Position numbers and translations under genes: made by a program | The notes under the pieces: model-generated | Database searches by the model: none | What the model saw: only the letters and a program-made list of their open reading frames with translations | What the model was told of the DNA's origin: nothing | Source: Xiphias gladius | Taxonomy: Eukaryota; Chordata; Actinopteri; Istiophoriformes; Xiphiidae | Direction of reading: 5' to 3' | Length of the DNA stretch: 64,000 nucleotides | Assembly (NCBI RefSeq): GCF_016859285.1 | Contig: NC_053406.1 | Span: forward strand, 7,371,001 to 7,435,000 | Part shown: positions 2,759 through 32,330 of the stretch, piece by piece | Position numbering within the stretch: the first letter of the stretch is position 1 | Layout of the letters: the number at the start of each line of letters is the position of its first letter

Positions 2759-2764
2759 TTTATT
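2759..2764 (-). terminator. Polyadenylation signal of gene A
   Basis: AATAAA on the minus strand (TTTATT on plus), about 140 nt beyond the gene A stop codon. It is the first canonical signal downstream of the last exon. Confidence 0.55.
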
Positions 2765-2904: not shown

Positions 2905-5900
2905 TCATTGGTAAGGCTTGGGGCCTCTCAGTAGATCGCCTGAGGTGAGGTGGGTAGTGGAACGGGTCCCTCCATCTCCAAACCTCCTTGGGCTCGCCAT
3001 CAGGGCCTCCATGGGGCTGGCGGGTCTGCGAATGGGGGCCCTGTCTCCCATACTCAGCAAGGAGCCAGGGACAGAGGGCTTGGACACAGCTGAAGGAGGA
3101 AGAGGATCCAGCTTTACGACGGGTTTGGAGGGGAGTGACAAGAAGGAGACGACAGTAGCACCACCAGGCTTGGAGCTGCTGCCACTGGTAGCAGAGAGTC
3201 CGCAACCACCTGAACCCGAGACTTCCATTTTCGGCTCGCTGCTTTGCTCACCATCAGGGCTTCCCTGGAATGAAATCAACCACCAGCACACATGATGGAT
3301 AACCTTACAGAAGGTGAACGGACTGTGTGAGGAAAGATTATGGCAGTTTTCTTAGCTTGAGGAAATATCAGATTGACCCAAGAATGAATCAAAGCTTGTA
3401 ATCGCCCGTTATCTTTTTCACATAATTTAAGTTATGAGCGAACTTACGTTCTTCTTCGACTTGTCAGTTTCACTTCCTGATGAACCCGAACTCTGAGGTG
3501 CAAAAAGGGAACCAATAAGATTCAGTCATTTCACCTCAACAGGGAACATAATTTCAACATATTCCCATTTTGGGTGAGTCATTTACCTTTTTCTTCTTCT
3601 TTTTCTTGTCCTTCTTCTCCTTTTTGTTTTCCTTGTCACTGTCACTGGAACAATCAGCTGAACTCGATGAACTGGAGCTCGAGTCCTGCCAAATTTAAAG
3701 GATGTCAGTCATCTTTTTTTTAGAACAATGTGCACAATAATTAATTTTTGTTTAGCACATACTAAATTACCTTCTTTTTGTCCTTCTTCTTTTTCTTCTT
3801 CTTGTCTTTCTTCTTCTTTTTCTTCTTCTTGTCATCATCACTGCTAGAAGAATCTGAGTCCTTGGATGTAAATATGGTAATTGAGTTACTGGATTGCCAT
3901 TTTTACAAAAAAAGAGACATTCCAAAGTGATAATTGCTCCAGGAGTGCTTAGCACTTTTAATAGCACCAAACACAACAAATGTACATCTTTTTACCTTTT
4001 TCTTGTCTTTCTTTTTCTGCTTCTTCTTCTTATTCTTTTTCTTCTTCTTCTTTTTCTTCTTATCGTCATCACTAGAAGAATCGCTACAGGAGTCAGAAGA
4101 AGAAGAATCCTGGACAGAGAGGTATTATAATAAACATCACATTTTATTCATACAGTAGTAATTACACAGTGATGAGCTATCCTTCTGCTACTTTAATACT
4201 TTTAATACTTTTGTGAGCAGTGATTTTCCCTAATTAACCAGTAAGAGTTCATGTTTAGTCACAATACCACTATATAACCTAATGAATGCTGACATTGTGA
4301 TTCATTTGTTTCACTTTACTTTGGCCACTGACCAAAGATCATCATTAGTGTGTTTTTGCAAGAAATTTCACATAGGTGTCAGTGGTGTCAGTGGCAAGCT
4401 ACCTCATTTTCCCTTTTCCAAATGTTTCTGCATTTTGTCTTTCTCAAACTTTCTTTAAACTTTTTGGATATATTTGCCAGTTTTCCGGAGTTAAAGACTT
4501 CAAAATTTGTTCAAAATATTGTACCTCATAAAATTAACCGAAAAACCTGGAATGGAGAGCAAAAGAAGAGACGTTCTCACCCTCTTTTTCTTCTTCTTCT
4601 TATCCTTCTTCTTCTTCTTCTTCTTATCTTTCTTTTTCTTCTTTTTCTAAAGTAAAAAAAAATGTACTCATGATGATTTGTGCAGCCATTTATCTCTGTA
4701 AACTTGATTGCAGATGAATCATTTACTTAGCAGACTCTATTGTATTTGCGTGTGTCATCTCACCTTGTCATCATCACTATCAGAGGAAGAGGAGGACGAG
4801 GATGGGGAACAAGAGGAGCTATCATCAGAAGAGCTGGACTTCTACAAGTACATCAGTCAGAGTCAGTCACAGAAGTGCATCCTTGTTCTTTAAACTCAAA
4901 TAATCTCTACTTTTCACTGGTTAACTACCAGTGCAAGCTACGCAAAGAGGTCCTACTTCCTTTAGACTCACCTGTTTATGAGCATCAGGAGCATGACATT
5001 CATCCATTAAAACAAGTAACAGTAACAGAACAACAGTGGAAATGGAACCATTATTACAAGGCCACACATTAAAAGTATTCATATATATTTTTTACCTTCT
5101 TCTTCTTCTTCTTCTTCTTCTTCTTTTTCTTCTTCTTTTTGTCATCTTCACTATCAGAACAGGAGGAAGAGCTGGAATCCTGTAAAACGAAAGCAGATGA
5201 GCGAGTGATGTAATATCAATGCAATACACAACCGAACCCCTCGAAACAGCACAAGTGCAAAGAATGGAATACATAAGTGTTGTGAAGACACAAACCTTAT
5301 CCTTCTTCTTCACCTTCTTCTTCTTCTTCTTCTTTTTCTTCTTCTTTTTCTTCTTGTCATCTTCGCTGTCTGAAGAGGAGCTATCAGATGAAGAGCAGCT
5401 GGAGTCCTACAGATTAAATCAAACAGAAAAATCCACTTTTATAGCTACAAACGCTTTAAATTTTATGAGATAGAAACACTCACATTCCCATTTCAAAATT
5501 TAGAGTTTTCAATTCACTCATCCGGCAAACAGAAAAAGGTTTTTGTCTTTGATACAAATACACTAAGTTTACCGTGCACCACTACACTAAATGCAAAAAA
5601 TGTCACAGTACGATATACAACCCTATTTATACAAGGTGATTTGGAAAAGCAACACCGTCAGCAGATATAAAGACAGTTTTCACAGCTCTTTGTATACCTT
5701 TGCCTTCTTCTTCTTTTTCTTCTTCTTATCTTTTTTGTCTTCATCACTGTCTGAAGATGAGCCAGAGTCCTGTAAACACAGAAAACGATTCTGAAAAATC
5801 ACCGTGAATTTTTGATGTTGATCATCCTGTAAAATAACTGCATTATGCCATAAATATTGCATCAGTACATGGTGGTGTTAATGCACGGTAACAATCTTGA

Positions 5901-8900
5901 TTCCCATTAAAAGAGGCTACATTCTTCATTTTGTTTAAAGGGAATAGAGACTAACACATTCCCTTTTCAGCACCATCTACATAGCATAATCACCCTTTTC
6001 TTCTTCTTCTTCAGCTTCTTCTTCTTATCCTTCTCCTTGCATCCTTCTCCCTCATCATCGCTCAGGTGGCCATCCTCAATAGCGTCAGGGAATGCCTCTG
6101 CTCCCCCTGCTGCACAGGAAACGTCATTACAACCAAAACAATCACACTTTTCCAAACCCTTCACTCGCTGTTTGAGTTGTGCCTGAGTAGCACACATACC
6201 AGCCAATGCAGGGGACAGTTTGCCTTCTTCTGCTGCTTTGAGGTCTTTGGCCTTGGCCTGTCATGACAAAAGAAAGCAATGACTCCCTGTGTGTTTGTGC
6301 ATTCATGTGGAGCATGAATATAGTATGTGTGAGGGTTTCACCCACCATGTCAGCATCTTGATCCTTCTTTTGATATCTGTCAGCACAAGGTCCTGCAATC
6401 TCACCACCTGCAGAAATGCAGAAAGTCCGAATGTGCTGCATCAACACCAATAACAGCGGCAACTCTTCCTGTGAATTCCATGCAATAATCTGTGCTTTTG
6501 AGTCACCAAAAAGTGGAAACACTCACCAGCTGCTGGAAGAGCAGTAACACTGCTGAGCTCATTCTGCTCCTCACTCTGTGAAAACGCGCACACACAATCA
6601 AGCTCAGGTTCATGGTATATACTGTACCTTGTTTTCCCCTACAAATCTACATACACAGAGATACAAATGGTACATGCAAACACATAAGAACATACCCTTG
6701 TTGAAAAATCATAACCAGATCTGAGCGTACAGACTGTCTGTGTAGTAGTAAAGAATATGAATAAAGCTGATAAACAATATGAGGTGAGGTGTCGAGACAG
6801 TGAGGTACAACTACGTATCTTTACATGCCATTCTCTTGCAGGCCACCACTCATTTTCTCAGGAGGTGTGTGTACTTTTGGGTAATCCGGTTTCTACTTTG
6901 CTTCAAGGGGGATACAAGCCTTTCTATAGCCGTACGAGTTTAACGCAGATACTGTTCCCAGATACTGAATAACATAATAAAACTTAAGCCTCCTGTGTGC
7001 AGACAACAAAAAAGGAAAGTGTGACCTGACCTGAGAACCTACTACATAATTTACAGGCATTTTAAGCTTTTTAAAATACAAGAAGAGGAATTTTACCTTT
7101 TTCTTATCCTTCTCCTTCTTCTTTTTCTTGTCCTTCTTCTTCTTCTTCTTTTTCTTGTTATCTTTATCACTGTCAGAAGATGAAGAGCTGCAAACCTGTA
7201 TCAATCAAAAAACGAAAAAATATCAGTTTGCCATTCATGCAAAAATGTGTGAGACCTGCAATTTATTCTGCATCACAAATCACGCATTGCAAATTAGTCA
7301 TTGGCAAGAAAATATAAAGTAAATGTGCCTTACGGTATAACTACAAAATGTACCTTTCATGATCACCACATGATTAATTGTAATAGTAAAGTTATTACCG
7401 TAGACTTTCTGTAGAATCCTCCCAGTCTTAATTTACACAGTAAATAATAGAACTTTCAAATATAAAAACATCCGCATTACATTACCTTTTTCTTGTCTTT
7501 CTTTTTCTTCTTCTTCTTGTCCTTTTTCTTCTTTTTCTTCTTCTTCTTGTCATCTTCGCTGTCCGAAGAGGATGATGAAGAGGAGGAGCTATCTGAGGAA
7601 GAGGAGCTGGAATCCTTCAAAAGAAGAAGAAGAAACAAAATAATTAATATATTGACAATGATTATTTGTTTTTACACAGAGGTAGAACAGACAGATCAGA
7701 CATTTGATACTGTAACTGTATAGTGTTAAACATTTTTTTTTTATCTGACCTTCTTCTTCTTCTTCTTCCTCTTCTTTTTCTTCTTCTTTTCATCCTCACT
7801 GTCTGATGATGAACTGTCAGATGAAGAAGAGGACGATTCCTAGGACAGAGGAAGTAGAGTATTAAGTAATATAAAGGATAAAAGTGTCATTTATATATTA
7901 TATATCAATTTAAATATTAATTTTTCAATGTTTTCATTACATTATTTGATTCATTATGTGATGTGTGCTAGCCCATTAAAACAATTCATTATTGTTGTAT
8001 AATCTGCTGTATTATGGGTAAATTTCACATACCTTCTTTTTCTTTTTCTTTTTCTTCTTCTTCTTTTTCTTCTTCTTCTCATCCTCACTCTCTGATGATG
8101 AACTGTCAGATGAAGAAGAGGACGATTCCTAGGACAGAGGAAGTAGAGTATTAAGTAATATAAAGGATAAAAGTGTCATTTATATATTATATATTAATTT
8201 ATATATTAATGTTTCAATGTTTTCATTACATTATTTGATTCATTATGTGATGTGTGCTAGCCCATTAAAACAATTCATTATTGTTGTATAATCTGCTGTA
8301 TTATGGGTAAATTTCACATACCTTCTTTTTCTTTTTCTTCTTGTCCTTCTTCTTCTTCTTCTTTTTCTCTTTCTTCTTGTCAATCTCATCATCTGATGAG
8401 CCCAAATCCTGAAACAAACAGACAAAAATGATATAATGAGAGGTTTAGAAAGGGGCAGCATGTTCAAAATGGAAGGTCGTTTGTTTTCTCTCTCACCTGG
8501 CTCTTCTTCAGACACTCTCCAGACCCCTGTTCCATTTGGCTGTCGGAACCTGAAAACATGTAATACATTCAATTGTAAGGTTTGTGTTAATGCATGAATT
8601 AACATGCTACATACATTGTTAGTTGTGAGACATCTCTATACTCAAATATTTGATTCAGATCACATATCATCTCTGCTAGAGATAAAAAGGGAATTTATAC
8701 ACAATCGTGCAGTTCTGAATATTGCTCAATGTTATTCTGTTTATTCACAAAAACATTCCCCCCTGTTTTGAAGTAAGTTTTAAAGAAACTGACAGAAAAT
8801 AAAATCGGAATGAATATGTTTTCATGAGCTGCTGTAAACACAGAACTTTGTATTATTATTATTATTATTATTTGTCACAAATCTGCACGATAATAAATAT

Positions 8901-11900
8901 CAGAATGTGCACATCCTAGTGTGAGTGACAATGCAGCTGGTGGCCCACTCTCTTCTGTGTCACCACAGACTTAAACTGGCGTGGGAGACAATTCGATAAC
9001 TGGAAGATCTGGACAAACTGGAAGTTTCATCTCAATTCTGCAAAGGTGCCCCTTAGCAAGATAACACCTACATGCTCAACATGCAACAACTTTGTAATTG
9101 TGAATGTACAGAGCCTAACAACGCATTAACCTCTCAATACATCAACCAGTTTCACAATGCAAATGAGAAATGCTGTGTGTGTCTTACCAGAATGAGATAT
9201 GATAACACTGTCCCAGACGTACTCTTTCTCCTCATCCTTCTTCTTCTTCTTCTTCTTTTTCTTCTTTTTCTTCTTGTCATCCTGCAAGGGAACGTTGATT
9301 CTTTCATAACTGTATGTTAGATTTTTTTTTTTTAATTCTATTGTACACATGTACAAGCATGGCGGTTGTTTGCAAAGTGATTGTTACATTTGCTTAATAA
9401 AGTCTAAAGAAGATAAAGTCATCAGGATCACGGTCGGGTGTTCCCTACTAGTCATAGATTAAGAATTTTCTGCTTTTCTGATAACAAACAACCACACCTG
9501 TTACGATTACGCAGCCAAAACCAACACATGAAAAAATTATATGAACAGACTTTACATAAGACACATACAGTATTACATACTGGATACACAATTATACAGT
9601 GCTATTACTATGTAACCATGCACTTAAGACTGCACACACGCCCTCATATTTGTGATGTCTTGGAGCATTCCCAATCAAAATAAGACTAGGTAGATTCCAC
9701 ATGACTTTATTGTCATGACTTGTTGTGGTAGATACAGAAGGTGCTTCAAACATTGGCACTGGGTGTGTTCCTCTCCTGCAGAAACCACCTGCTATCAGAT
9801 CCAGGACATTACAGCCTCCGCCTAGTGTCCAGGGTGAAATGCATTGTTAATGTGTTAAGCACATTTACTTTTCAATTGTTCTGCTCCTGTGATTTTTCAT
9901 CTTAATGTTTTATAAGCATTCAGTCCCATCAGAAGTGAACCAGTGAGTGATAACGCGTTTGAAATACCAAAAAACTCTACCTTAAAGATTCTTTGACCTT
10001 TGCTGAGGTCTTTTGTCTTAAAAACTTGAGAGAGTCGCTTGCTTTTCTTGAGTTTCCTGGTTTCACCACCCACACCCTTAGAAAATGAGCAAGACATCAA
10101 TGCCATCATGGCACTTATCCCTCAGCTTGCCAAAATACATGATAAAAGCTCAGTTTTTGGATTTCTAATTACCACCAAAATTCCACTCTAAATATTCTCC
10201 AACAGCTTGTATTGTCAGCTCTGACAAACTCATATATCATCACCTAAGACAGTGACATAGTTAGAAGGGACTATCAATCCATTATGAGCTGATATGAGTC
10301 ATTTGCTTGGGGCAAATGACTTAATTTAGCAATGCTGCAGGAAGGATTAACCGCAACAAAACTGCACTGTCAAAGCATCAGATCTACGGTTTCTTTCTCT
10401 TTTGAGGGAAATATTTTGGCTTCAACTGATATAATCCTGAGAACTGGGCATCAAGCGCCAAGACCTCTCAAAATGATCAATGCAAACAACGGAATCATGA
10501 GGAAGAGGCAAGGCTCTGTGAAATCGAAAGGTGTGTGCTGACAGCAACTAGTGTCTTGACATGTTGGAGCAAGTCAGGAGAAGGAGCAATATTCTTCTAT
10601 ACAGCTGTGGGAATCCTTGGTGAGCACCTATGCCGTAACCACAACTTACCTCACTGTCACTGTCTGAAGAGCTGCTGGAAGACGAGGAAGAAGAGGAGGA
10701 AGAAGACGAAGATGATGAGGATGAGCTGGAATCCTGGTGAAAAAGAGGAAGTTATAGCTCATCTTCATGCACTCACTGAACAGGTTTATCTACATGTTCC
10801 TTTGTTGGCAAGTGCTAAATGAGAATCTAAACGAATGAGTCACTACAAACGTACTCGAGTGAGGCTCTGTCAGAGCCGCTTAGAGAAGGCACCGTAGCTT
10901 GCAGCAGAAGGGAAGGGCTACTCAAACACAAGGCAACACACAAAGGAAACTACACAGGCAACCATTTTACAAAAGAGACACACAGATGCGCGCAAACACA
11001 CGCACACACACACACACACACACCCATTCCAGCTATGTTGTAAGCCAATCAAAGCTATTGCAAAAGTGACAGTTGAGCTAAATTATAAACAAATTAATCA
11101 CATTCCTAGTTCTCTGCTGTTTGACTGACTGTTGCTAGGTGCAGCCCACACTGCACGTCCCTCCTCTGTCAGATGTCAGGACTGTGCAAACCTGATTTCT
11201 GCAAAGCAGCCTCCTATGTGTAGCTTCCAATCGAGGAAACACCCTCACAAAGCCACAAGATCAACTGATGACATGATTTCATCTTATTGGACCAACAGAC
11301 TGGGAATTTTCAAGAAAATACTCAATAATAAGAACAACATTTAATAGTGAATATTGCTTGGTTAGCGGTGAAGCTTTTTGATACACATACTTTCTTTTTC
11401 TTCTTTAGCTTCTTCTTCTTCTTGTCTTTCTTGCCAATACCCTCATCCTCGCTGTCTAAAGAGGAGAGAGAGCTGTCACATGAGTACAGCTCCTGGTGAC
11501 AGACAAAAAGAGGAAGAGCATAGATTATTTAAAGCATCCTTCACAATCTATAGAGTTCAATGTCTCGGTGGAATAAACACAACAAAACAGAGCAGATAAG
11601 CGTAACAGTAACACTTAATGTTTTCTAGTTTGATGCAGTTAATTACTTTGCAATTGTGCATTTTTATATGTATAATTTTGGATTAGCGTTATGAAATTAT
11701 ACAGTAAGTAATGGATAATAGACACATTAAGCTCCTTGAATATTTGGTGCTAAAATAAAATGGATCATTGCACTCAAATGATTGATTTGTGCTTTCTGAA
11801 TATCTCTCCTGCTCACCTTTCCATCTCCTGTCCCTAAGGGGTGTCCGGGTCGACTCTTATCTTCCGGTCCTGAAGGCTCTGCTACCTCAGCAAGGGGCTG

Positions 11901-12589
11901 CAAACCACCAGGAGGGACCGCTGCTGGCTGCTGGACACCTGCAGCGTCTGCTCCACCTGGAGCTAAACAGTGCAGGGTGACAGGATTAGAGATGTTTAGC
12001 AGACAAACACCAGTTATTCTGATCTCTCTCTTTTTTTAAAATTTAGAATCCTTATAACTCAGAAAATGAACCACCAGTATCTACAAACTTTATGGCTTTT
12101 GAAGGAACCTATTTTGACTATGCTGACTGTATCAAAACAACTAAGGGATTTGTGTGACTGCACTTCCTTACTGCCCACTTCCTTAAATAGACAGCCAGGT
12201 TAAAACATAGAGGAGCGGCAACGTAAGGTGCTAAATCAATCAAGTAGAACCTCCAGACTGATGACTTTTTGGTGACCTTTGCCATTAAGCCAGTGAACTG
12301 CCCAACTACTTCAACAATTCAGAAAAGTGCCACACCCTTAACAATACATGGAAAGATGACAACGTCTTTGTTTTGTGTAAATAGACTATATTAGTCGTGG
12401 AAACACCTCTATTAAACAGTTATAAATTGACAATTTGCTTTCTTACAAAAATGATTGTTGTCTGCTTATTAAAGAAAGAGACATGCCAAAATTTCACCAG
12501 TCACACACTCATCAAACTATAATCTAAGTAGACTAGTAAACAAATCATATTCAAGATGACAGCAAACCTTTGGAGAGAGTGGACTCCAT
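2905..12589 (-). CDS. Gene A: 25-exon Ser/Asp-acidic and poly-Lys repeat protein, 801 aa
   Basis: Coding exons in transcript order: 12568-12589 (ATG), 11817-11962, 11391-11492, 10650-10733, 9188-9281, 8497-8549, 8322-8408, 8033-8128, 7750-7839, 7486-7614, 7097-7195, 6527-6575, 6346-6407, 6200-6257, 5994-6109, 5698-5769, 5296-5406, 5096-5179, 4764-4841, 4581-4646, 3996-4109, 3771-3860, 3587-3685, 3448-3492, 2905-3264 (stop). All borders are AG/GT and the lengths sum to 2,406 nt in one frame. The N-terminus is MESTLSKAPGGADAAG. Most exons encode a Ser cluster with Asp/Glu (SSSSDSDED style, resembling CK2 sites) followed by 8-20 Lys with scattered Asp. Exon 4 has 22 consecutive Ser. The last exon (119 aa) is not repetitive and ends RGPKPYQ. 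There is no signal peptide or membrane segment. Alternating acidic-Ser and basic blocks recall NOLC1/treacle-type nucleolar proteins, but this is analogy only. The gene is not recognised. Confidence 0.8.
7790..8334 (-). repeat. 289-bp tandem duplication creating an extra gene A exon
   Basis: The segment 7790-8045 recurs at about 8079-8334 with only a few differences. Each copy holds the Ser/Asp-coding half of an exon, a whole intron (sharing the ggaagtagagtattaagtaa start and the intron end) and the beginning of the next poly-Lys stretch. The offset is 289 bp (tctgatgatg at 7802 and 8091). Both edges lie inside (CTT)n poly-Lys coding tracts. Confidence 0.9.
10999..11023. repeat. (CA)n microsatellite
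   Basis: Short CA tract in the gene A intron between exons 3 and 4. Confidence 0.8.
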
Positions 12590-14056
12590 ACGAGTCCAGA
12601 TTTCTCCTCTGTCCAGGAACCCAGTTCTCCTCTTACAGACGCACCTGTGTGTTCACTTCATGACAGAGTGTGGGTGTGTGGAGCTAGGGTTTTTATGGGT
12701 GGGGATAACAGGGAAAGTGTCAAGGAGGCCACAAAGGTTTCAAAATAAATCCCACTTTGAGAGAAAATATTTGACATTACAAAAACTGCGCCTACTACAA
12801 ACCTAATGTGCCAAGCCCGCGGTTTGAGTGATGAATGAGTCATTTTGTTGTTCTGTGAGAGACAGCTTCTAACAGACTGTACGCTATTATTTCAGACTAT
12901 TTTATGGAGTCTGTTTTATTTTGAAACCAACAACGTCTTGTTATTCTGGCCATATATGCCTTGTGGGTCCTACGCAGCTAGACTGGCTGGTTTACCTGTG
13001 CCAGCAGGTAATGCCTGTTTCAGCTGCTGGGGTGACAGGATAGTAGACCACTGCAATGTCTGCATGACTATAAAGTTTTACGACTAGTTTAACAGATCGA
13101 TACCAGCTGCAGCAATTGGTGCGCAAGAATGATCATCCATAATACCTACCCCACAAGGCCGGGGAAATAAGCTTGTTTGCCCTTGGTTAGAGCAGCTCAG
13201 GGGCAACACTGAGTCTTTATACTGGGTTGCAAAGATGAGAGTTTCTCCTTTCATGTACCACCTACAGGAGGTTCAATGAACACGGTTTTAAGCCATGTAA
13301 TGCTGTCGTGTCGCCTCCCAGAGGATACTCAGACGTATGACCACGGGGTCATATCGTACTAGTCAAACTTATATCTTCTGTTCCTTTCCAGCTTCCGTAG
13401 TTTAACAGCCGTGTGGTTAGAAATGCCAGGGTCAGCTTCTTCCGGAAATGGGAAATTTATTCTCAAAATAAAAGTAAAGCTATTACAATTCAAATTAAAA
13501 AGAGAAAATAACAAACACTGAATTGTATATATCTTCACAAAATCATACTTAAATACTTAAATAACTCATTAGATGTAGAAAAGGAGAAACTTAAGATATG
13601 AACATTGCAAATGGAGTTGATACAAAAGCTATATTTTTAACTTTCTAAGGAAAACGCTGTCTATCGTCAATGTAGTCAGCTTGACAGCTGTGTAGCGCAA
13701 AGCAGTGCAGTAGATACGGGAGTCTGCGATACTTTCTGTTACCTTTTTCCGTGTTAAATAACGGAGTCTCCCTCATTATTTTAACTCTGTAATGTAGAAC
13801 AACTAGCCAACGTTAGCTTAACTTAAAGAGGACAGTGGACACACGGCACCGTGAGGCGGTTACCTTTTTAACCGACACCCGCACATCTCACCGCTCCTCT
13901 GTTATGGGACTTTGCCAAAGAAATTTTGTTCTGGGATTATGAAAGGTCAGTTCTTTGCCTGTCGCTCCGTAGCTAGAGGACCAAAGGCAAGCCATGACAA
14001 CTAGCCAGCGTTAAATGTGGGTCCGTTCACACTTTAATGACTGACTGGTTGTCACC
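12590..14056. promoter_or_regulatory. Divergent intergenic region between gene A and tp53i13
   Basis: About 1.47 kb separates the gene A start (minus) from the tp53i13 start (plus). No exon with good borders was found here, although non-coding first exons of either gene could be present. The part nearest tp53i13 (about 13800-14056) is CpG-containing and is the likely 5' UTR/promoter of that gene. Head-to-head position only; no specific factor sites are claimed. Confidence 0.4.
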
Positions 14057-14201
14057 ATGCCGAGCCAAACGACGTCCCCGCCGCTGACAGTGACTGTCGT
14101 GGCCGCGCTGTGGGTCAGTTTGGGTCGGTGCGGTGTCTCCGATTCTCCGGGGCCAGGATGTGACAATGGAAAGGTACAATTTAATACCTATTGTGTCTGC
14201 T

Positions 14202-14269
<68 letters not shown>

Positions 14270-17200
14270 TGTCTGTGTGTCTGTGTCTGTGTCTGTGTGT
14301 GTCTGTGTCTGTCTGTCACACAGTGCTTTTAAGGATATAAGTTAAGGTCGTCAGTTATCGTTGGCATTAAAATGCACTCAACTTCAGGGTCTGTGTGTGT
14401 GTGATAGCTGTCTTTGGACAGGGACCTGCCTGCGGATGCTGGATATTGGGACTGTTCAACGTCTGCTTGGCCAGAGTCTACTCAGGTAACCATGGACACA
14501 ACAGGACCTCATCGTCATCATCTATGTTACACATTACGGCCTCACTGCCTCAGATGGGTGGGGTGTGCTGCAGTACAATGGGTGCCAGGAAGTTTAGACA
14601 ATCATGGGAAGGCAATTGCTGTGGTAAACCCTTTGCATGTAGCATCGCCAGTGGTATCAGTTCTCAAAAGAGCCTGGCTCACTTCTGATCACTGCACAGG
14701 CAGGCTAAATACAGTACAGTGGCCATTGTCCAGGTTTGTTCAGGGGTTTAACCAATGTTCACTCTCTCTCCTATCTACAGAGACCCTCTAGTACTGACAA
14801 AGTGTATGATCCTGAGGTGAGTAAACGCCTTACCAAGCAACTGCCTCTCCCCGCAACCTTTGACCCTCCAAACACTAACGTCACACGGGTTTTTCCTAAA
14901 ATCAAAGCACATCCTGATAACAGTCAGTGACACATCCACAGTTAAGTTCAAAAATGTGATGCCAAAGCATGACATGAACCAACAGCTTCACCTTGCACGA
15001 CTGCTTGATGAATGGTTGTTAAGCCAGGAATAGGGCGATAAGATCTAACCGGACTTAATTTCTTCTCGCTGCAGCCAGCCAGGCAGATCTGTATGGATAA
15101 ACCTATCTCCTACAATCACACCATTCCCAACAGGTAAGGCTATGTGGACGGACATATTATCAAGTAGGCTCAACATAGGTACCAAGTCATCGCTGGATGG
15201 TCACACACAAGTTAAAGACCGTCAGTTGTTCTGTATATAAATACAGCTGACACGTGCACAACAATGTCTTCATTGTCCCTGTCTACTGCTTTGTAATACT
15301 GCAATAAATCCACTAATCTAATTTTGTCACATATAAAAGAGCTATCAAGGATGTTAAGCAGTGTGTCCGTGTTTGTATTTGTGTGTGTTGTAGTGGAGCG
15401 TACAGACCAGTGAGGGCAGAGAGTGGAGAGTACTTGTACTGTCCTCCTCAACGGTGGCTCAATAACTTGCGCGTAAGTTGCGACATCAGACATCAGTTTT
15501 CTGCCTCTGTCTCCAGTCTCACAGCAATTTAATCACTTTATCTGCTTAGTACAGTAAATGAATAGACTTTTGTGTTCAGGGCGTCAGTGAAGACACTGAC
15601 TGTTTTTATAGTAGCTGTGGTTAGTGAGATACAGACCTGTATGTATATTCAAAACTCATGAGAATTTAACACGAACCATGAGATATTTAAAGTCTCAGTA
15701 AAACAAAAACGACTGTATTACTTTGCCTATATTAAAATATACCTACATCAATTTAACATTTAAATCATTTGAATTTTTAAAATCAGCATTGTTTTGATTG
15801 ATTATTTTATGTTGTGCCAATGGGCGTCCAAAAAATTCCAAGTAATAATACCATCCCCGTCCTCCCATCATAAAAGAGCCGCAACTGTACAACAATTTAC
15901 AAAAATTTCACAGCATAGTATAGAGGAAACATGGTATTATATTACAAAAGTCATATTTATTTTACATTAAATACCATAGTAGTTTATTTGTTGCGGCAAA
16001 CAGCTTTTGTAGAGTAGTTTCGGGGTTGTGCACAGTATAATACAGATTTTTGAATTAACAGTCCCTTCCGTACTATTCCCAATCTTGCAATCTGTTTGAA
16101 CCAGAAATGCATCAAACTGTGGAGTTAAGACACAATCAGTGTATTGTTTCCTTGCATCTTAAATTAACACAGGGCATTCAGGGAAGTAATACAGGGAAGT
16201 CTGCCAGCACTCACGTTCTACCTGTTTGGACCCTTGGTAGCAGAGCTGCAACTGCACATGGAGTTTCTTGAATATCAGGGATTTAACAAACAGTAATGGC
16301 ATGTCAGGGATTTTTATCGCACTACACCATAATGCCAGAATGTTCTGTAGATCACAGCCGGTTCAACACATTAGCTGGTGGTTGGCAGATGTATTTCTCT
16401 ACAGATGAAACCAGATATCCCCCTGTACCATCTCTGTCAGATGAAAAACGCTATGAACAGATAAGGAGGGAAAACAACATTTACATTATTTTAACCACTT
16501 ACTTTGCATCCTAAATTTTGGCGAGAACTAAATTGGTGGAAACCCTGCGGTTAATGGTAGAGGATGGGGGTAATGATAATCACATGTGTGTTTGTGTTTG
16601 TGTCGTTGTGTATTTTCCAGCATGGAGCTACTGTTTTGCTCCACCACCCCTGTGCTCCTCTCAATGAGCGTCTCCTTCTGTCTGTCCTGGCCCGCTCCTG
16701 TTTGTCAGACTACATCATTACCCCACATCCACAGCTCAGTAAACACAGGGTAGGAAACACTTTATCTCTACCTTTTAATTTGTCAATCAGTGAGATTAAA
16801 GTTAAACTGAAGCTTTTTTTTGCTTTTTTTACTGTTCACTTGTTGAAATATTTTGAACTTTGTCAAACTTTGATTATATGTCTTTGGTAGCTTTAACACT
16901 CGAGCAGGGAAAAAATAACTGAAGATGTAATTTAATCCCACTCATTTGGATCTCTTAGTTATTGACTAAGCAAAACCAGGCCTATCAGGTATCTGTTAAT
17001 CCACCTTTAAGGGTTTAACAACCTTTGTGTGGGTGTGATACTCCCCCTTTACCGTTAATAAGGACAAACTACAGACACAAAAACAAAAGATTAGATTTTC
17101 ATTATGTACGTTGAGGGAGTCTACAGTAGGTGAATTGAAGTAACTGTTAATTCATATAATGGGAAACATTGGCATAAGCAGTGCCAGAAGCCTTCTTGAT

Positions 17201-19184
17201 GACATTATAGTGTTGTTACAGTGTTACATGTAGTTCATATGAATGACTTTTGACGGCTATTACGGACCATCAGTGTACCATGACTTATTATATCAGAAGG
17301 TGAGCTTCTATTGAAGAAGGGGGGGGTGAGTGTTCACTGCTGGCTCTGTGTTCAGCCAATAGCTTTGGTGTCCTGGGGCCGCACTGTGGAGCTGTCTACC
17401 GTGGCCTCCTCAGACGTCTGTGATTGGCTGGAGGCCACAACAACCACAAGAAATAAGTTCAGCGGTGTGAACCACATCAGAGAATACAACTTGCTGTTGA
17501 CCCGGCCAGCTAAGCAGCACCGGCTGCAACACACACATCCAGAGGAACGGTCAACAAAAATGAAGGTTTGGAAACTTTACTGATGATTGTACCCATTTTG
17601 TTGACTCACATGTTAATTATCAGTCATTTTACTTGCACTGCAATAAAAGCAGCATTGAAGAGTCATCTCAGTAGTCTTGTAACTGTCCCTAAGTAACTAT
17701 TACTGTAAACCCCCAGGAGTCTCTGAAGCAATGCTGTGAGCACACCATCTCTTCTCTGCTGAATGAAGCAAAGGAGCCAGAGCTGGAGTCCAGCATGAAG
17801 AAGGAAAGTTTGAAAAAAATGGAAAAGGGAGGGAAAAGAAGACAGATTCGAGCTCCCATCACAGAAAAACAAGAGAATGTTAGGGCTGAAAACGAGAGAG
17901 ACAACACAATGCACGCATTCAAGTCTCTGACCAGCCAGACCAACAGAACCATCCTCAGAAGGAAAGGGGGTGTCCAGAATTACAACAACACACTTGGACC
18001 ATCGGCAGATTCTCTTCCAGATAACAGGACTCTCTCAGATCCGCCTGCTCCAAGGGAAGCTCCTTCTCAATCTAAGATACAAAATCTGAATCTGAGCCTT
18101 ACACCCAGGCCCACAACTCCTTTGGGTTCAAATATGTCTACAATTAGGAATGATTCTTTAGCATTTGGGGATTCTGAGTCTGAGAAAGGTTGGCTGACGA
18201 TACAGAGAGCAACACTGCAGCTCAGCCCTAAACATACTGACCCCAAAAACACACACCCCTCAGCTGACATGGATGTTCTTGCACATGGTGTGAACAGTGA
18301 ACATAACCACACTGCAAGGCCTGAAGCCCTGGCCCTAAGTTCCAAAGATGAAGGTACAGACTCAGCCAAAGAGAGAAATAAAGACTCTGCTGAACGCAGC
18401 ATGAAAGAGAACAACTCTCAAGAGAAAAACTATGCTAAACATATCACAGCAGATGGCAGGATGAAGAATAATGAAGTAGTAGATGTAAAAGAAAGAGAGT
18501 TGGAGCCTAAGCAAATACACAGTGCCACACATTCTCACCACAAAAGTGAAAACAATGGCTTTGATTCTGTTTCCAAATCCCAATCAGAGTCTCCACCCCA
18601 GCCACAACAACACCCAAACCCACATCCAGCCATTTACCTGCCTAACAGCCATGAGTGTGACAGCTGCAAGACAGGCAAACACTGTGACTGCACCAAGGCG
18701 TCGGGAGCCGAGGCCCAAGCTACCGTTGTGAATACGGGGTTGCCGAGGACCCCCAGGACGGACGAGGCGGTGTGGGCAGCAGCAGCACTGGGCTTCCTGT
18801 TGGTTCTCCTGACGCTGTCCGTCCTTCACACTCGCCTGTACCGCCACTGGAGGACCACGCCTAGTCTTTACTGGCACGACCCACGGCAGGACTACGACAG
18901 TGTGGCAGGTAAGTGGACCACACAGGGATCAATCACCAGAGAGCTGACCAGTCCTGTTTACAAGTAATCAGTTCTTCCTTGGCCCATGCCCTAATTGTGC
19001 TCTAATTTCAGTGAGGTCTTTTAAGTAGGTGCCTTTGTCTGTATTCGTAAGCAGTGTAATCTGTATGTGTCTTCTAGATGTGATCCGCAGGAGGCTGCGA
19101 ATTGCGAACAGGAGGCGGAAAAGGGGCAGGAGACAGGAGTGTGTTCTCCTGCCAAGCTCCTCCAGCTCAGATGAACTTCCGTGA
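14057..19184 (+). CDS. tp53i13: Tumor protein p53-inducible protein 13 orthologue, 668 aa
   Basis: Nine coding exons: 14057-14173, 14408-14485, 14781-14816, 15075-15133, 15394-15472, 16621-16749, 17356-17565, 17717-18908, 19078-19184. They sum to 2,007 nt in one frame, with GT-AG borders. An N-terminal hydrophobic stretch (residues about 10-25) suggests a signal peptide. Exon 6 has the family block HHPCAPLNERLLLSVLARSC, and exon 7 has the conserved LVSWGRTVEL-type segment. The C-terminus has PRTDEAVWAAAALGFLLVLL, a membrane helix at about residues 589-610, then SLYW and a basic tail (RRRLRIANRRRKRGRR). Together these match mammalian TP53I13, a single-pass membrane protein of unclear mechanism induced by p53. 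Human TP53I13 is about 390 aa. The extra length is in exon 8, a polar low-complexity region rich in Ser, Asn, His and Lys. Exon 2 was chosen over an alternative AG at 14420-14421 because only the acceptor at 14406-14407 keeps the frame open. Confidence 0.92.
14202..14269. repeat. (GT)n microsatellite
   Basis: About 34 GT units followed by an imperfect GTCT/GTGT tail to about 14318, in tp53i13 intron 1, immediately upstream of exon 2. Confidence 0.95.
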
Positions 19185-25295: not shown

Positions 25296-27951
25296 TCACT
25301 GTTTCTTCTCACGAGTGGTGATGGTGACCAGTTGCTTGGCAGCCTTGGCGATGTCGTAGGCGCACTGGATGACCTGCTGAGTGAGGAGTTGGTAGTCCAC
25401 TGCAGGGGCCCCGGGCTCCGAGGGTGCCGCCTTACGGCACTCAACCTGCAACCGTGAGGCACTGGAAGCCAACAGGCGGAGGGAGCTGTGGACTGCATCC
25501 AACGCTGGGCGCTACAGAGAAATGAAGGGAATGAAAACTCAACTCACATGGTGGATGGTGCAGGATATAAACAGATGGAGAAAGATAAAGAGAGCAACAC
25601 ACAGACGAAGACGGATAAAAAGAGACACACAAAGGGAGAATTCAAACACAAGCAGAGGGAACTTACTTTGGGGAAGAGTGACGCCATCTCAGTGACAGCC
25701 GAGTGGATCTTCTCAGAACATGGAACAAAGCTAAGAAAGAGAGAAATTAATTATTTAACTTGGCAGCCAACTCAAAGACTGAGGCAATAAGGTTGTTCTT
25801 GTTGCTTTCACACCTAATCTGTTCACTTCAGTTAAAACAAACTCTGGTGCGTGTTCCCGTTTAGTTTAGTTTGGGCTGGTGTGAAACCCATTATTCGAAC
25901 TTTGGTGCAGTTTAGAGATGCAACGATTAGTCGATTAATCAAATTAACTGACAATGACATTAATAATTAAATAATCATTTTAGTAATTCTTTCTAGCTTG
26001 TGATCTCATAGTCATCTTGCATCATCCGGAAGCCATTGGTGCGACACATCACTGTAATTCAATGTGTTATTCAATAAGGAGGATCAGGTTACATTTGTCA
26101 GCCAGGATATAATGAGTAGTACTTATTCTATAGCAGATAAAATGTTTTCCATGACTCTTTTTCCATCTCTTGAGTGTGTGTCTATCACCTACCTGTCGTG
26201 TTTGAACTCCTGAGCAGCCCTGAGCAGCTCCTGGATGTTCTTCGTCACCTGCTCAGTCTTCAGTATGACATCCTCTGTGCAGGGCAGGGTGGGGTCTGGC
26301 TCCCCCGCCTCCCCGCCCCCACCTCCTCCCTCCTCAGACTCCCCGCGACCTTCCTCCTCACTGCTGCGGCCCATACTGAAAAGAAGAAAATACACTTTTA
26401 CTAATTAACACCTTGGACTAAAGCAAAGAGCTGATAGTCAAAAGACTACAAATAAAGATTGATAAACACTCGTCCTTGTGTGTACAGTGACTTGCCATGA
26501 GTCTGACCTTAGCGAGAGGTCGTATGTTTGTGTGTTGTCATAGTCACTGTCTGTGCCGCTGCCGTGCTTCTCTGGTTTAGAAATCTGGGGAGGGTAACAC
26601 AGCAACAAGATGTTCCATCATTACAGTAATCGCACACTTCACCAAACCCCCTGTGTTGTTCACTCCTGCAGAGCTTAACAGATACATCCTCCAACAAAGT
26701 TCAAGCCTTTGTTCCCATTTAAATTCGATGGTTTCCAGTGAAGTCCACAATTGCAGAGATTTTAAAAGTTGTTTAAATTAGCAGTTTTTCTGTGAATCTG
26801 ATTCATTGTAGTTGTTACTCAAAAAAATGCAAATCATGTGGGAATGTTTAAATTTGTAGGCAAAATTGAGTATAGGGGAAGACTCTATTTTTGGTTTCTG
26901 AACATCTGTAGTTCCTTTCTCACAGGATGTGAGAGATTTTCTGTGGTAGAAATGCAGGATTAGGGTCCATATTCCAAGGCCTTGCAGTATTTGCAGGAGA
27001 CTGGTTCTGACAAAATAGTGCAAGTCTATGATCTCAACTTCCTGAATGGACTGAGTGCAGGATCATGAGAGTAGGAAAATCCATCTTGTAAAACTGTAAG
27101 AACTTACCATGTATCTGCCCATCTCTGTAGATCCAGACAGATGCTGGCCTCCATATGGTGTTGGACCCCCTGTACTACCCTTCCTTACCTGTGAAAAAGG
27201 GGCAGACAGGGATGGAGAGAGGAAGAGAGAGATGGACGGATAGAGATGAGAAGAGAAAAAGATGGAGAAGGAAATGAAAGATTCACAGAAAGAAATGGAT
27301 GATGAAATAGGAAGGAAAAGGTGAGTGTGGGGACAGAGAGAAGAGATGTTTTATAAACAGCAGAAACATGAAATGAAGGAGCTAGTTGACAACTTGGCAG
27401 CTCACCCATCATCCTATCAAGATAAAATGCCTCTATAGTTATCTAAGACTTACGTTCAAAGAACACGCAGCTAAATTAACCAGTGAACAGCTACACATCA
27501 CACAGAGCACCTAAAATTGACTATACATACTATAAACTAATGCTGACCAGTATTAGAATGCATAATAAGCAGAAGTGGTGCACAGTATGAGAATCCTACT
27601 TTTGAAGACAAAATGACAAACAATGCAATGACAGACAGAATGCTTACATCCAGAGGATGCACGGCTGCACTGCAGTGACAAAAGGACAGACAGGTGAACA
27701 GACAGACAGACAGACAGAAAACAGACAGACAGGTAAATCTTTGTATGAAGAGATGGTGAACTGGACACTGACTTATTGTCCATGTAGATTTTCTATACTT
27801 CTGAGTGATTGTGTGTTTGCATACCAATGCTCGTAGATGTTGCTGTAGGTTAAACGCTACTAATACTATGACTTGACACCTGGCTCTGTCATATTAGACA
27901 TTTTACCAGGATATAAACCATTGTTTGGACATACTTTTCCATCTTTGTCCT

Positions 27952-28028
<77 letters not shown>

Positions 28029-28060
28029 GTGTGTGTGTGTGTGTGTGCGCACGCGCGCGC

Positions 28061-28093
<33 letters not shown>

Positions 28094-31000
28094 CAACTCC
28101 ACATTAAGTAGCTGTCCAGCAGTGGAAGGCCAAAAAGGGTTGAAAATGTAAAGGTCAGGGGGGGAAAGCAGGCTAGAGAGCGGGACATCAGAGGTGCTGC
28201 CAGGAAACCAAACAGATAAGAGAATCCCTTTTTCTTCCATCTTTCTCCATCAGGTCACACTTGTGCACTTCCCCCTTTATGGTGCTAAAAAGCATAAATT
28301 GAGGTCTGATTGTCCTTAGACAAACCAGTGCTACACTTTCACATTTAAATGGGGATAATACACAACTGGACCTTTCAAAGTACTGTGAACTGAGATGCAG
28401 GGAAAGACAAAGTTGCAGGGAAAATACAGAGATCAGGTTTGGACTGTCACCCATCACTCAGGCCAAAGAGAGCTAATCAGGGCCACCAAAAGGAGGCTGG
28501 GGAGTAGAAGGGGCCGGGTTGAGTTCTAACTTACGCTGGGTGTGTTGAGGGGCTGCAGGCGGGCTGCCAGGGAGTCCAGGGCTGGGGGACCATGGGCCGT
28601 GGGGCCGGGGGCCGCCCCTGGCTCGTACATTGAGAAGGCCTGGCGGTCCCTCCGGTGGGGATGGGAGTGGGGGGCGACCGAGGAGGGCACCGAAAGCCCC
28701 GGGGGTTCCGCTCCTGGCCCAAACCCACCCAGACCCCCGCCACCAATACCTCCTAGCATCACAACCCCTTGCCAGTGGCCTCCTCCTCCCCCCCCTCCTC
28801 CTCCACCAGGCCCCCCTACCCCATGGCCGGCTGCCCCCCCAGCCTGCTGGCCCCCCCGCAGGGCACTGTTCTCTGTCTGCATCCGTGTGATCTACAGGAG
28901 AGGAGGAAGGGAGCGGGGAGGGATGAGAGGATGTAGGGTGGGATGGAGGGAGGGACATGGGGAGGTTAAAGGGAAGGGAGGGGGGTGTCAACTGAATGGT
29001 CAAAAACAAGCATCCACAATCGCATGTACAATAAAAGGCTCATACAGGACTTCATATATTAACACACATCAGTACTGGGGAGGGAGGGTATGTGTGGTAA
29101 AGACACTTCAGTAAGTTACATGACGGGGCAGGGATTGGGGTTTGAGGGAAGGGGTGGAAGGAAGGCTTAATACCTGTGTATACACATATAGTTTGCTTTA
29201 GAGGGATCATAAAGTGGTAATTGTGGGTTCGCCTGCACTGATGCACTGTTGACTACCATCTCATTTGACAGTATTATTTGTTATTTGCAGTGTGTGCTCA
29301 AGTAATTGCTTGTACTACACTTTGCTTGCCTCAACTCTTCACTAAATCCTCAGCCAAGGGACAACAAGAATACATGAATGAATCATGGATCACAAAAGCT
29401 GACACTGGCAGCCACTAATGAATACATTAATACATTAAGAATCCAAATGAAGCAATGATGAACAGCAGATGAGCACTAGCAAAGCTAAAGTAAAAAAATG
29501 ATAACTAAAATGAGAACGAGTATTTGTAGCACCCTAGCTCCCACATGAGAATGACAGCTGCTTTAGTTTCTAGATAACACTGAAAGTCATCTTACAGAGA
29601 CAACAGTGGAGGATATTGACACCCTGTCAGGAAAAATACATCACCTTGCAAAGATATTAAAATAGTGACTTGTCTCTCCATCATCCTACCCTTGTTCTGT
29701 CTGAATCACTTTTATAAACCCCGTCATCTAGGCGTCATCTCCTATCTGATTTTATTCCAGTGTTTCTAAGAAACAATTTTTGCCAACCTTTCTTGCATCA
29801 TTCCATCTCTCTTCATTTTCCCCCTTTTGCTCTCCACTATTATTAAATAAGATTTTAAAACGTAAATAAATTGTAAAGTGTTTTAAGTGCCTCTCCTGCT
29901 CGGTATTTCTCAAAATTCGAAACATTGGTTGAGGTTCTGCATATGTTGATCCTCTGATCTTTTCCGCCTGATTTATCCCTAACCATTCTTTCTTTCCCTC
30001 CCCGTGCTACCTACCTCTTTTTGGAGCCGCCGGAGCTCCTCGCTCAGGTTGTTGTTGACCTTCATGAGCTGCTGCACCTTGGCTTCTGAGGAGGCCAGGG
30101 CCTTCTTCACCTCCAGGTACTCCTGCAGGGTAATGGGACCATCTGACAAGTCCGACGAGTCCATACTCTTGATTGTTGGGACATACAGGCAGGTGGAGAG
30201 AAAAAAAAAAAAAAAAAAAGATTAAAAAAATTTAAAAATTAAAAAAAAAGTGGACACAGACAGGTGGAAAGTGAAAGTGAATTTGCAAAGCTATTAGAGG
30301 ATAAAAATCCAATTTCTTAAGCCTTAATTTCCCTCATACTGTATATCTAATGTTTGCAGTTTTTTTGCAGACGTAACATGGGGATATGCAGTATGATCCA
30401 ATGCCCTTTTAGCTGGGTAAAAACAGAGCTTACTACTGTGTGAGAGAAGAGTGCTGGTCGCAGCCTGCAGGATAGTACTACAGCTGATCACAGATATTTA
30501 TACAGTAGAGCCTTAGTTTTAGTCTCAACACACTATCTGCCCCGACATACTGTGACCGTGGAGCATGCTCAAACTCAGTCCTATACCACTCCCTAACACT
30601 GAACCTTTAAGATCTTTCATACACTATTCTTCAAAGCTCCTTGTTTACAATTCATCCACCTCCTACCCAAACTATGTCTATTTTACTCTCATGTCCCATT
30701 TAATACATATATACAGTGACATACAATACCATGCCATTCTTCAATCTTACAAGCACAACAAAATAATGAATGCACATATTCAAGTGGGGAGATGGAAGTG
30801 GAGCCTCTGACTTGTGGTTTGTCAGTATTTTGCCCACTGAGCTAAATAAGTGCACAGGAAAAAGAGATAGTTACTGGTTTAGCTGTTGTTTACTCTGTCA
30901 TTTCTACCACTCCCACTCCTGCACAATTTCTCTTCTCTTTCGCTGTCTCCTCTTCCATCCCTCTACACACAGTCTCTCTGTATGAACAATGCCTCTCTGA

Positions 31001-32330
31001 CGGGGACCCTGAATAGCTGATGATGTCACTCAGGAGCTATGTGGCAGCCCTGACTGTGGCCACTCCCTGCAAAGCATGCTGGGACAAGCAGTCTTAAAGA
31101 GGAAACCATGGAAAAGCTTTCCTAGCTAATATTATCATACATTATATGAGAGGAATGGGACTGAATCGTTGAGTAAAACTGTGAGTATGTCAACATGTGT
31201 AGAGTCGTGTATTGGTAGGCTTTACCTTGAAAAAGGGTGCTGCGTATTATTAAAGCTACAGGAGTAGTAGCAGTCAAGAACTATACCTTTGCACGGTTGC
31301 TGCGTTGAGTGTTGTTATTGTTCTGGGTGGTCAGCTCACTGTCTGTGTCTTCATCAGATGCTACACTGTCATAGTCATGCTGGTCATCATCAATGCCCAG
31401 GTCCAGTGGGTCTGGCAAAGGTAAGAATGTGCTCATTTATCACAGTTCTTTCAATAACAGAGTATATCAGCCCTTCTCTTTCCTTTCATCTTTCTCTTGG
31501 GACTGCTCAAACAGATAAGACTGCTGACTGATTTTGGCCAGCTTTCTTCTCTACTTATTTCAGTTGGGGTCTCCATGCTGGTTTCAAATTAGAACCAGTT
31601 GTTGATGCAGAGGATGTAAGTCAAATGTCTGTACAGACAAAAACATACCACTTGGTCTGGCACAGATTTAACTGTAACAATAAATTCTAAAAATCCTCTT
31701 TCACTTCTTCACTAAACTGCTGAACTGGACCTGTTCATCATGTTGCTGCTTGCAGCTATAATTACAGTAGCTTCTAAAATGTTTTTAATACACTTTATAG
31801 CTATGAAAGATATTGGAAAAGTCAATAAACTGACTTGTATCTATCCATTTTTGTAACTAGGTTAAGTTCCAGTAAAATGTCCTTGTTTTTTGCTATTCTT
31901 GAGAAAGCTTTATAATTCCCTTCAGACCTCAGTCCTAATCTGTCTGTCCTTTCCTCCCAGTGTCTCACCAGTAGGGCTGCTGAGACCTTTTCCCTGCTGT
32001 CTCCTTTTGGCATCACTCAGGATATCGATGATGAGCGTGGCAAACTCTCGAGCGTTGAAACGGGCCAGCTTCTGACGGCCCTGAGAGAAGAATGAGTCAG
32101 GATTTAGGACTTGGATTATCATCTCAACACATGCACACATTGGCTTGACCGTCTAAAATTCAGTAAAAAATTCTAAACTTCTATCTAAAGTTGTGCAGTA
32201 TGCAAAAATAATCCAGCCTACAGTCAGTGCTTCACTGCCAGTGTGACTGCTGTGGTCAACTTCCATGTGCCGTGGAAAAACACAGTCACACTGAGCAGTT
32301 GCAACACACAAGCGCGCGCGCACATACATG

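Follow-up and report, generated by a model that had tools for sequence, protein, structure and literature searches.

The window, the whole 64,000-nucleotide stretch of DNA analysed here, carries on its minus strand what looks, from its sequence, like a real protein-coding gene of 25–26 exons. The explanation that we favor, at a probability of about 0.5, is that this gene codes for an intracellular, disordered block polyampholyte built of diblocks of CK2-phosphorylatable acidic serine and polylysine, which would self-coacervate with a valency set by module number, and whose modules would have multiplied through unequal recombination of AAG tracts. We infer that the product is expressed, used by CK2 and able to condense; by analogy, its location would be nuclear or nucleolar.

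A single open frame through 26 exons

An exon-by-exon rebuild on the minus strand, from 12589 to 2905, joined 26 exons into one open frame of 2502 nt (833 codons) that runs from an ATG at 12589 to a TGA at 2905 without internal stops, and all 25 introns of this model have GT–AG borders (Table 1). The coherent gene with serial in-frame modules proposed in the sequence-only reading is thus recovered, but its count of 25 exons and 801 residues has to be corrected, as the rebuilt model contains one 96-nt exon more. Most simply, the exon absent from the earlier model is exon 5; exon 9 is likewise 96 nt long and thus an alternative.

Ranked with a splice-site matrix, the donors used fall within the top 17% of the 656 GTs of the region and the acceptors within the top 16% of its 829 AGs. 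The weakest borders are the donors of exons 1, 17 and 18 and the acceptors of exons 7, 20 and 23. A scan for missed exons, restricted to intron segments of 30–400 nt whose length is a multiple of three and which do not adjoin an intron end, yielded none that we adopted; it returned a single in-phase Ser/Lys-rich candidate, 19 codons long, plus a pair of overlapping 64–66-codon stretches that lack this Ser/Lys richness. Codon preference, trained on 653 codons, discriminated the unique exons poorly and is not counted as support: it was weak or ambiguous in non-module exons, exons 13, 14 and 15 were outscored by another sense frame, and the last exon scored 7.8 against 8.0 for an antisense frame with five stops. 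Upstream, a second CATAAAA occurs at 12906.

Table 1. Features of the gene and its surroundings (positions in the window)
Feature	Position	Strand	Remarks
TATA-like box CATAAAA	12691..12697	-	108 nt 5' of ATG; putative function
Exon 1	12568..12589	-	MESTLSK; 22 nt; end phase 1; weak donor
Exon 2	11817..11962	-	unique (APGGADAAG...)
Exon 3	11391..11492	-	first acidic-Ser/poly-Lys module
Exon 4	10650..10733	-	half module, Ser block alone
Exon 5	9981..10076	-	96 nt; middling borders; possibly optional
Exon 6	9188..9281	-	poly-Lys half module and unique end; phase 0 to 1
Exon 7	8497..8549	-	unique; phase 1 to 0
Exon 8	8322..8408	-	module
Exon 9	8033..8128	-	module; recent duplicate of exon 10
Exon 10	7750..7839	-	module; recent duplicate of exon 9
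Tandem duplication, 289-bp unit	7751..8369	-	breakpoints in poly-Lys tracts of exons 8, 9, 10
Exon 11	7486..7614	-	module; 129 nt
Exon 12	7097..7195	-	module
Exon 13	6527..6575	-	unique; phase 0 to 1
Exon 14	6346..6407	-	unique; phase 1 to 0
Exon 15	6200..6257	-	unique; phase 0 to 1
Exon 16	5994..6109	-	phase 1 to 0; similar to exon 2 start and exon 3 end
Exon 17	5698..5769	-	module
Exon 18	5296..5406	-	module
Exon 19	5096..5179	-	module
Exon 20	4764..4841	-	split module, Ser-acidic half
Exon 21	4581..4646	-	split module, poly-Lys half
Exon 22	3996..4109	-	module
Exon 23	3771..3860	-	module
Exon 24	3587..3685	-	module
Exon 25	3448..3492	-	degenerate module; 45 nt
Exon 26	2905..3264	-	unique C-terminus; 119 codons and TGA; predicted mostly coil (low-confidence model)
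AATAAA poly(A) signal	2759..2764	-	about 140 nt 3' of stop
Left neighbour gene (L010)	1029-264	-	4 exons; 116 aa

Module exons and charge pattern

By hand count on the model, 13 exons (3, 8–12, 16–19 and 22–24) hold a complete module, a Ser-acidic block plus a poly-Lys block, where stricter text patterns give 11 or 12. Two further modules are each spread over two exons (20 and 21; 4 and 6, with exon 5 in between), and exon 25 is counted as degenerate. As described earlier, module exons are mostly short and symmetric: 16 of the 18 exons with Ser-acidic or poly-Lys blocks begin and end in phase 0 and measure 45–129 nt, the exceptions being exons 6 and 16. The alternation of acidic-Ser with basic blocks also stands: phosphorylated or not, the product has a window-charge variance that none of 1000 shuffles reached.

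Lysine accounts for 260 of the 833 residues, Lys blocks occupy 15 exons, and the Ser runs mix codon classes (TCN 103, AGY 28). The product has 57 S/T-x-x-D/E sites; under a hierarchical rule 140 of its 198 Ser/Thr are CK2-phosphorylatable in silico, which is a maximum and not an observation. Its computed net charge is +133 unphosphorylated and −147 at maximal CK2 phosphorylation, and the number of alternating charge blocks, which depends on the chosen window (25) and threshold (5), is 17 when phosphorylated in silico and 8 without.

We propose that each module exon supplies one diblock, a hierarchically CK2-phosphorylatable acidic Ser cluster plus a poly-Lys block. Unphosphorylated, the protein would be a polycation fit for binding to RNA, polyphosphate or nucleolar partners; maximal CK2 phosphorylation would convert it to a strongly alternating polyampholyte apt to self-coacervate, a behavior that has been measured for treacle. 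Module number would then determine valency. If the gene is expressed, its natural alleles and splice forms, rather than designed proteins, could show how module number sets condensate behavior.

A recent in-frame exon duplication

A whole exon was recently copied in frame together with its intron, giving exons 9 and 10. The duplicate copies differ at 13 of 330 sites and introns 8 and 9 at 3 of 193; with its breakpoints in Lys tracts, this would be, if the gene is expressed, a tangible example of exon birth driven by a coding repeat. The earlier proposal that modules can be gained, lost or skipped is borne out in its first part, gain, by this one event. It is the only duplication young enough for its breakpoints to be visible.

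According to our proposal, modules would multiply by unequal recombination between the in-frame AAG (Lys) tracts of adjacent exons. Each event would insert one exon with one intron and would keep the frame because the introns between module exons are in phase 0. Unequal exchange may be the general route of module growth. A wider version, which we regard as tentative and rather unlikely, is that of a lineage-restricted gene whose AAG tracts play a dual role, as cationic sticky blocks in the protein and as recombination sites in the DNA for frame-safe gain and loss of modules. The valency of a nuclear condensate, tuned by CK2, polyphosphate or pyrophosphate, would then change by whole exons from one species or individual to another, providing a natural module-number series.

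Searches for relatives

A Pfam scan of the whole 833-aa product returned no family at its cut-off, in agreement with the earlier failure to assign one. Up to E 10, SR-25 was the one family listed, far below cut-off, and LisH, Treacle and SRP40_C gave no match, with the proviso that HMMER filters may lose weak low-complexity matches. Six families came up for the N-terminal 199 aa, none at cut-off (best SRP-alpha_N, E 0.005), and the last exon and an exon 13–17 fragment each gave no Pfam match. In the 691-Mb genome, at the sensitivity used, the queried gene parts, exon 2 among them, matched this locus alone, bar one weak match of the last exon. That match (contig C21, E 0.075) lies beside stretches that by eye look STAT-like and coding, and was taken as chance, as was the only PDB sequence match to the last exon (E 0.077). 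AlphaFold2, run on the last exon as a single sequence, gave a mean pLDDT of 60.8 and a lone 6-residue helix; this is compatible with disorder but, lacking an alignment, is weak evidence.

Literal motif strings were not found in open-access papers, and searches of that literature on in-frame exon duplication, Lys/Ser-rich teleost genes and GIT1/TP53I13/teleost gave nothing firm on a prior description. We can say no more than that we did not meet the gene in the open-access literature searched.

The product could also be a basic structural protein, either germ-line or cytoskeletal, with repeats that serve bulk charge and not condensation. Its Lys/Ser/Asp composition would suit a cylicin-like protein and the TATA-like box would fit tissue-restricted expression, but the lack of any Pfam family at cut-off speaks against this reading, which we consider unlikely.

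Evidence for coding

A simple pattern found 16 Lys-codon tracts in 15 exons of the gene span, two of them in exon 22. All 16 open to a model donor at most 39 nt away (8 directly), 15 of them at a codon boundary, the lone exception being that of exon 6, which ends in phase 1. This goes beyond chance, but the count is partly circular because the model was assembled around Lys tracts. Searching both strands of the rest of the 64 kb with a slightly stricter pattern, we found three A-rich runs and, in the left neighbour gene, a single tract.

Signs of selection, as on a translated message, favor coding. Within the Lys blocks, codon position 3 takes 67 of 100 departures from AAG. Among single-step changes, 47 of 56 (15 exons) fall at position 3, compared to 62 of 112 in 20 AAG control tracts (Fisher p 2.7e-4), a moderate excess (84% vs 55%). 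Gene and control tracts were extended by a common rule from seeds of 2 and 8 AAG units, respectively. For contig C1 of the same genome 22 distinct AAG sites were listed, and the first 20 served as controls; some of these controls contain poly-A, AAC or CAG stretches, and their non-coding status is assumed. Because they too show an excess at the G position, these measured controls replaced a one-third null (p 6.5e-12), which was dropped. AAA-AAA occurs once in 192 adjacent Lys pairs, against 5.7 expected from a within-run shuffle (p 0.0026) or 7.7 from a global one (p 0.0009), and the longest A run is 6 nt despite the abundance of lysine.

These data also bear on the alternative that the span is a gene in decay, or merely AAG/CTT microsatellites that happen to be bordered by splice sites. 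Such a reading would suit the low complexity of the sequence, the frequency of AAG tracts in the genome (overlapping pattern matches: 1104 forward, 670 reverse) and the G-position bias of the controls, but it is made improbable by the single frame through 26 exons, the opening of Lys tracts to donors, the position-3 excess over AAG controls, the scarcity of AAA-AAA pairs and the presence of a poly(A) signal and a TATA-like box.

Comparison with known systems

Triadin and junctin are Lys-rich proteins with many small exons, but the present product shows no transmembrane helix in a Kyte–Doolittle scan (19-residue windows). The same scan found no signal peptide-like hydrophobic stretch (best 19-residue mean 0.94, if exon 1 is right), which argues against a secreted or mineral-binding phosphoprotein. 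The phosphorylatable Ser/Asp-rich repeats do resemble those of starmaker and DSPP; poly-Lys blocks are not known as a feature of such proteins, and we consider this origin highly improbable.

PASK motifs, found in polyphosphate binders, are defined as windows of 20 residues that are at least 75% D/E/S/K and include one Lys or more (PMC12345225). Such windows (461 of 814) cover 545 of the 833 residues; the motif denotes a compositional class, not a family. The Lys blocks also recall the disordered poly-Lys domains of JMJD6 substrates, tied to condensates and nucleolar targeting, and Liat1, whose polylysine region targets it to the nucleolus, as told in PMC9371714; here, in contrast, they recur in 15 exons and most are joined to an acidic Ser block.

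The closest likeness is in plan, as had been suggested. The 11 central repeats of treacle (TCOF1) correspond to exons 6A–16 (PMC9133508). Its S/E-rich block and linker are described as a strong diblock ampholyte, and the defect in condensation is also seen when charge is scrambled (PMC11996177). NOLC1 (Nopp140) and TCOF1 are the most pyrophosphorylated human-cell proteins found, in acidic CK2-consensus regions (PMC11427299). The present product shares with treacle the alternating acidic Ser-rich and basic blocks, CK2 sites, disorder and repeats that are each a diblock ampholyte, about one per exon in both genes, and with NOLC1 the CK2-type acidic Ser clusters, pyrophosphorylated in NOLC1, that alternate with basic blocks. 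It differs from treacle in lacking LisH, a Treacle family match and the Lys-rich C-terminal tail used for localisation (no Lys run occurs in the 119 aa of the last exon), in basic blocks that are nearly pure Lys and in length (833 vs 1488 residues), and from NOLC1 in lacking SRP40_C (PF05022) and in the poly-Lys nature of its basic blocks. Its locus is the GIT1 neighbourhood, which differs from those of human TCOF1 and NOLC1. That it is a fish orthologue of either, drifted past recognition, is therefore barely credible in spite of the shared chemistry and the repeat-per-exon layout, since neither the Pfam scan up to E 10 nor the locus fits. The best reading is that the product would work like treacle or NOLC1 but, with no LisH, Treacle or SRP40_C match, is not assigned to either family; if expressed, it would be an extreme, nearly pure form of their design, with most charge diblocks each on its own in-frame exon.

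The left neighbour gene

The left neighbour was considered as a candidate paralogue. In genome queries the N-terminus of the 26-exon gene matched that gene alone, with no match to the neighbour at E up to 1, and the left neighbour query matched the neighbour alone. At 4 exons and 116 aa against 26 exons and 833 aa, the neighbour is far smaller. It lies on the same strand, starts with a 22-nt exon ending in phase 1 and a second exon running from phase 1 to 0, and has a phase 0-0 third exon with Lys-rich and poly-Ser parts, as in the larger gene.

A single frame of repeated Ser-acidic and poly-Lys exons

Exon-by-exon rebuilding of the focal gene gave 26 exons, numbered from the ATG, with GT-AG introns and a single 833-codon frame that closes with TGA. 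The sequence-only reading had proposed 25 exons and 801 residues; its exon chain holds, apart from one missing 96-nt exon, most simply exon 5. The borders of exon 5 are middling, several other exons being no better, and exon 5 may be optional, since without it the exon 4 Ser block runs straight into the poly-Lys block that exon 6 carries.

Using a simple pattern, 16 Lys-codon tracts were found in the focal span, within 15 exons. All 16 are open as far as a model donor no more than 39 nt away (8 directly, 15 at a codon boundary), a count that is partly circular because the model was built around those tracts. Outside that span, a slightly stricter pattern picked up three A-rich runs in the window plus a single Lys tract, which belongs to the left neighbour gene. 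In the focal tracts, 47 of 56 single-step changes away from AAG fall at codon position 3; the figure is 62 of 112 for 20 AAG tracts sampled from this genome (Fisher p 2.7e-4). Both TCN (103) and AGY (28) codons occur in the Ser runs. AAA-AAA pairs are rare, at 1 of 192 adjacent pairs against 5.7 expected from within-run shuffling (p 0.0026) or 7.7 from global shuffling (p 0.0009), and the longest A run in the coding sequence is at most 6 nt despite 260 Lys residues. Since ribosomes are reported to stall on A-runs (PMC7295572), we read this scarcity as selection on a translated message. Codon preference is ambiguous in the unique exons, which counts against coding. On these sequence features, the locus is likely a real, unusual gene, and we put the probability that it is coding at about 0.85.

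The genome, probably that of a teleost (691 Mb, 1298 contigs; the window is 7371001-7435000 of contig C7), was searched at E up to 1. All matches to the N-terminal part (5 of 5), the middle exons (3 of 3) and one module (7 of 7) lay inside the focal gene. The last exon gave two matches, one in the gene and another (E 0.075) put down to chance. These searches scored best candidates only, with some queries shortened, so matches elsewhere may have been missed.

A candidate phosphorylation-switched scaffold

The sequence-only reading had assigned the gene to no family, and indeed no Pfam family reached its cut-off with the whole product (SR-25 scored 18.4 bits against 40); fragments gave sub-threshold matches only. 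Although the product resembles treacle and NOLC1 in design, we do not file it with them because LisH, Treacle and SRP40_C had no Pfam match in it.

The predicted 833-residue product is 31% Lys, 22% Ser and 17% Asp plus Glu, with PASK windows covering 545 residues and no hydrophobic segment. Its computed net charge is +133, with 8 alternating charge blocks, when unphosphorylated and -147, with 17 blocks, at maximal CK2 phosphorylation (140 of 198 Ser/Thr, all sites permitted under a hierarchical CK2 rule), bearing out the earlier proposal of alternating acidic and basic blocks. In both states, charge-window variance exceeded the maximum of 1000 shuffles. The central repeats of treacle have been called diblock ampholytes, and a condensation-defective phenotype is reproduced when their charges are scrambled (PMC11996177); NOLC1 and TCOF1 are reported to carry pyrophosphorylation on their acidic Ser stretches (PMC11427299). 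JMJD6 substrates are reported to include Lys-rich disordered regions, and Liat1 to reach the nucleolus via a polylysine region (PMC9371714). The favoured reading, with roughly an even chance, is that the focal product would be a phosphorylation-switched scaffold of the treacle/NOLC1 kind, its cellular place and partners being presumed.

Module multiplication

Two 330-bp segments match at 96%. The duplicated unit takes in the end of a poly-Lys tract, a complete intron and the first, Ser-acidic portion of the following exon; introns 8 and 9 (193 bp each) differ at 3 sites. Homology stops within the exon 10 Lys tract, upstream of its donor. Unequal exchange between AAG tracts of adjacent exons would produce such an endpoint, and the frame would be kept, given phase 0 introns and a register common to the tracts. 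The remaining seven listed self-matches lie within exons or extend scarcely beyond their borders, so these copies would be older or of different origin. Exon 16 looks like the opening of exon 2 (14 of 16 nt) joined to the end of exon 3 (SDDEGEGCKEKDKKKKLKKKKK versus SEDEGIGKKDK-KKKKLKKKKK). The likeness, whose score is inflated by Lys content, is a hint that the 5' part was duplicated internally at an earlier time.

Neighbourhood

Features of the window and of locus L072
Feature	Position	Strand	Remarks
Focal gene	12589-2905	minus
Exon 5	9981-10076	minus
Duplicated segments	7751-8080; 8040-8369
TATA-like boxes	108 nt upstream of focal ATG; 12906
AATAAA	~140 nt downstream of focal stop
Left neighbour gene	264-1029 (locus L010, ~9393)	minus	4 exons, 116 aa; Lys/Asp-rich, poly-Ser end
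Plus-strand gene, starting near 14057	~14057-19000	plus	N-terminus signal-peptide-like by eye, MPSQTTSPPLTVTVVAALWVSLG
GIT1	25299-32152	minus	right of focal gene; Pfam GIT1_C, GIT_CC, GIT_SHD
11-bp minisatellite	42599-43443
Ankyrin-repeat exon	63.7 kb	plus
L072 open stretch	4556-5446 of L072	plus	297 codons

A GIT1 orthologue, judged from sequence matches, anchors the neighbourhood: all three PDB matches of its C-terminal exon are GIT1 (~4e-32). More GIT exons were seen by eye up to 36.9 kb; Pfam gave no match for them. The plus-strand gene has a 424-codon open stretch and no Pfam match; by position and recall alone, we take it as a TP53I13 candidate. The left neighbour's first exon, like focal exon 1, is 22 nt long with a phase-1 end, and a genome search with a query drawn from this neighbour matched the neighbour alone; it is possibly a tandem relative of the focal gene.

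Separately, the purine-rich, Glu/Asp/Lys-rich L072 stretch is dissimilar to the focal modules, and its other frames hold overlapping low-complexity open stretches. The minisatellite (ATTTTATTTTT) has about 77 copies matching at 99%.
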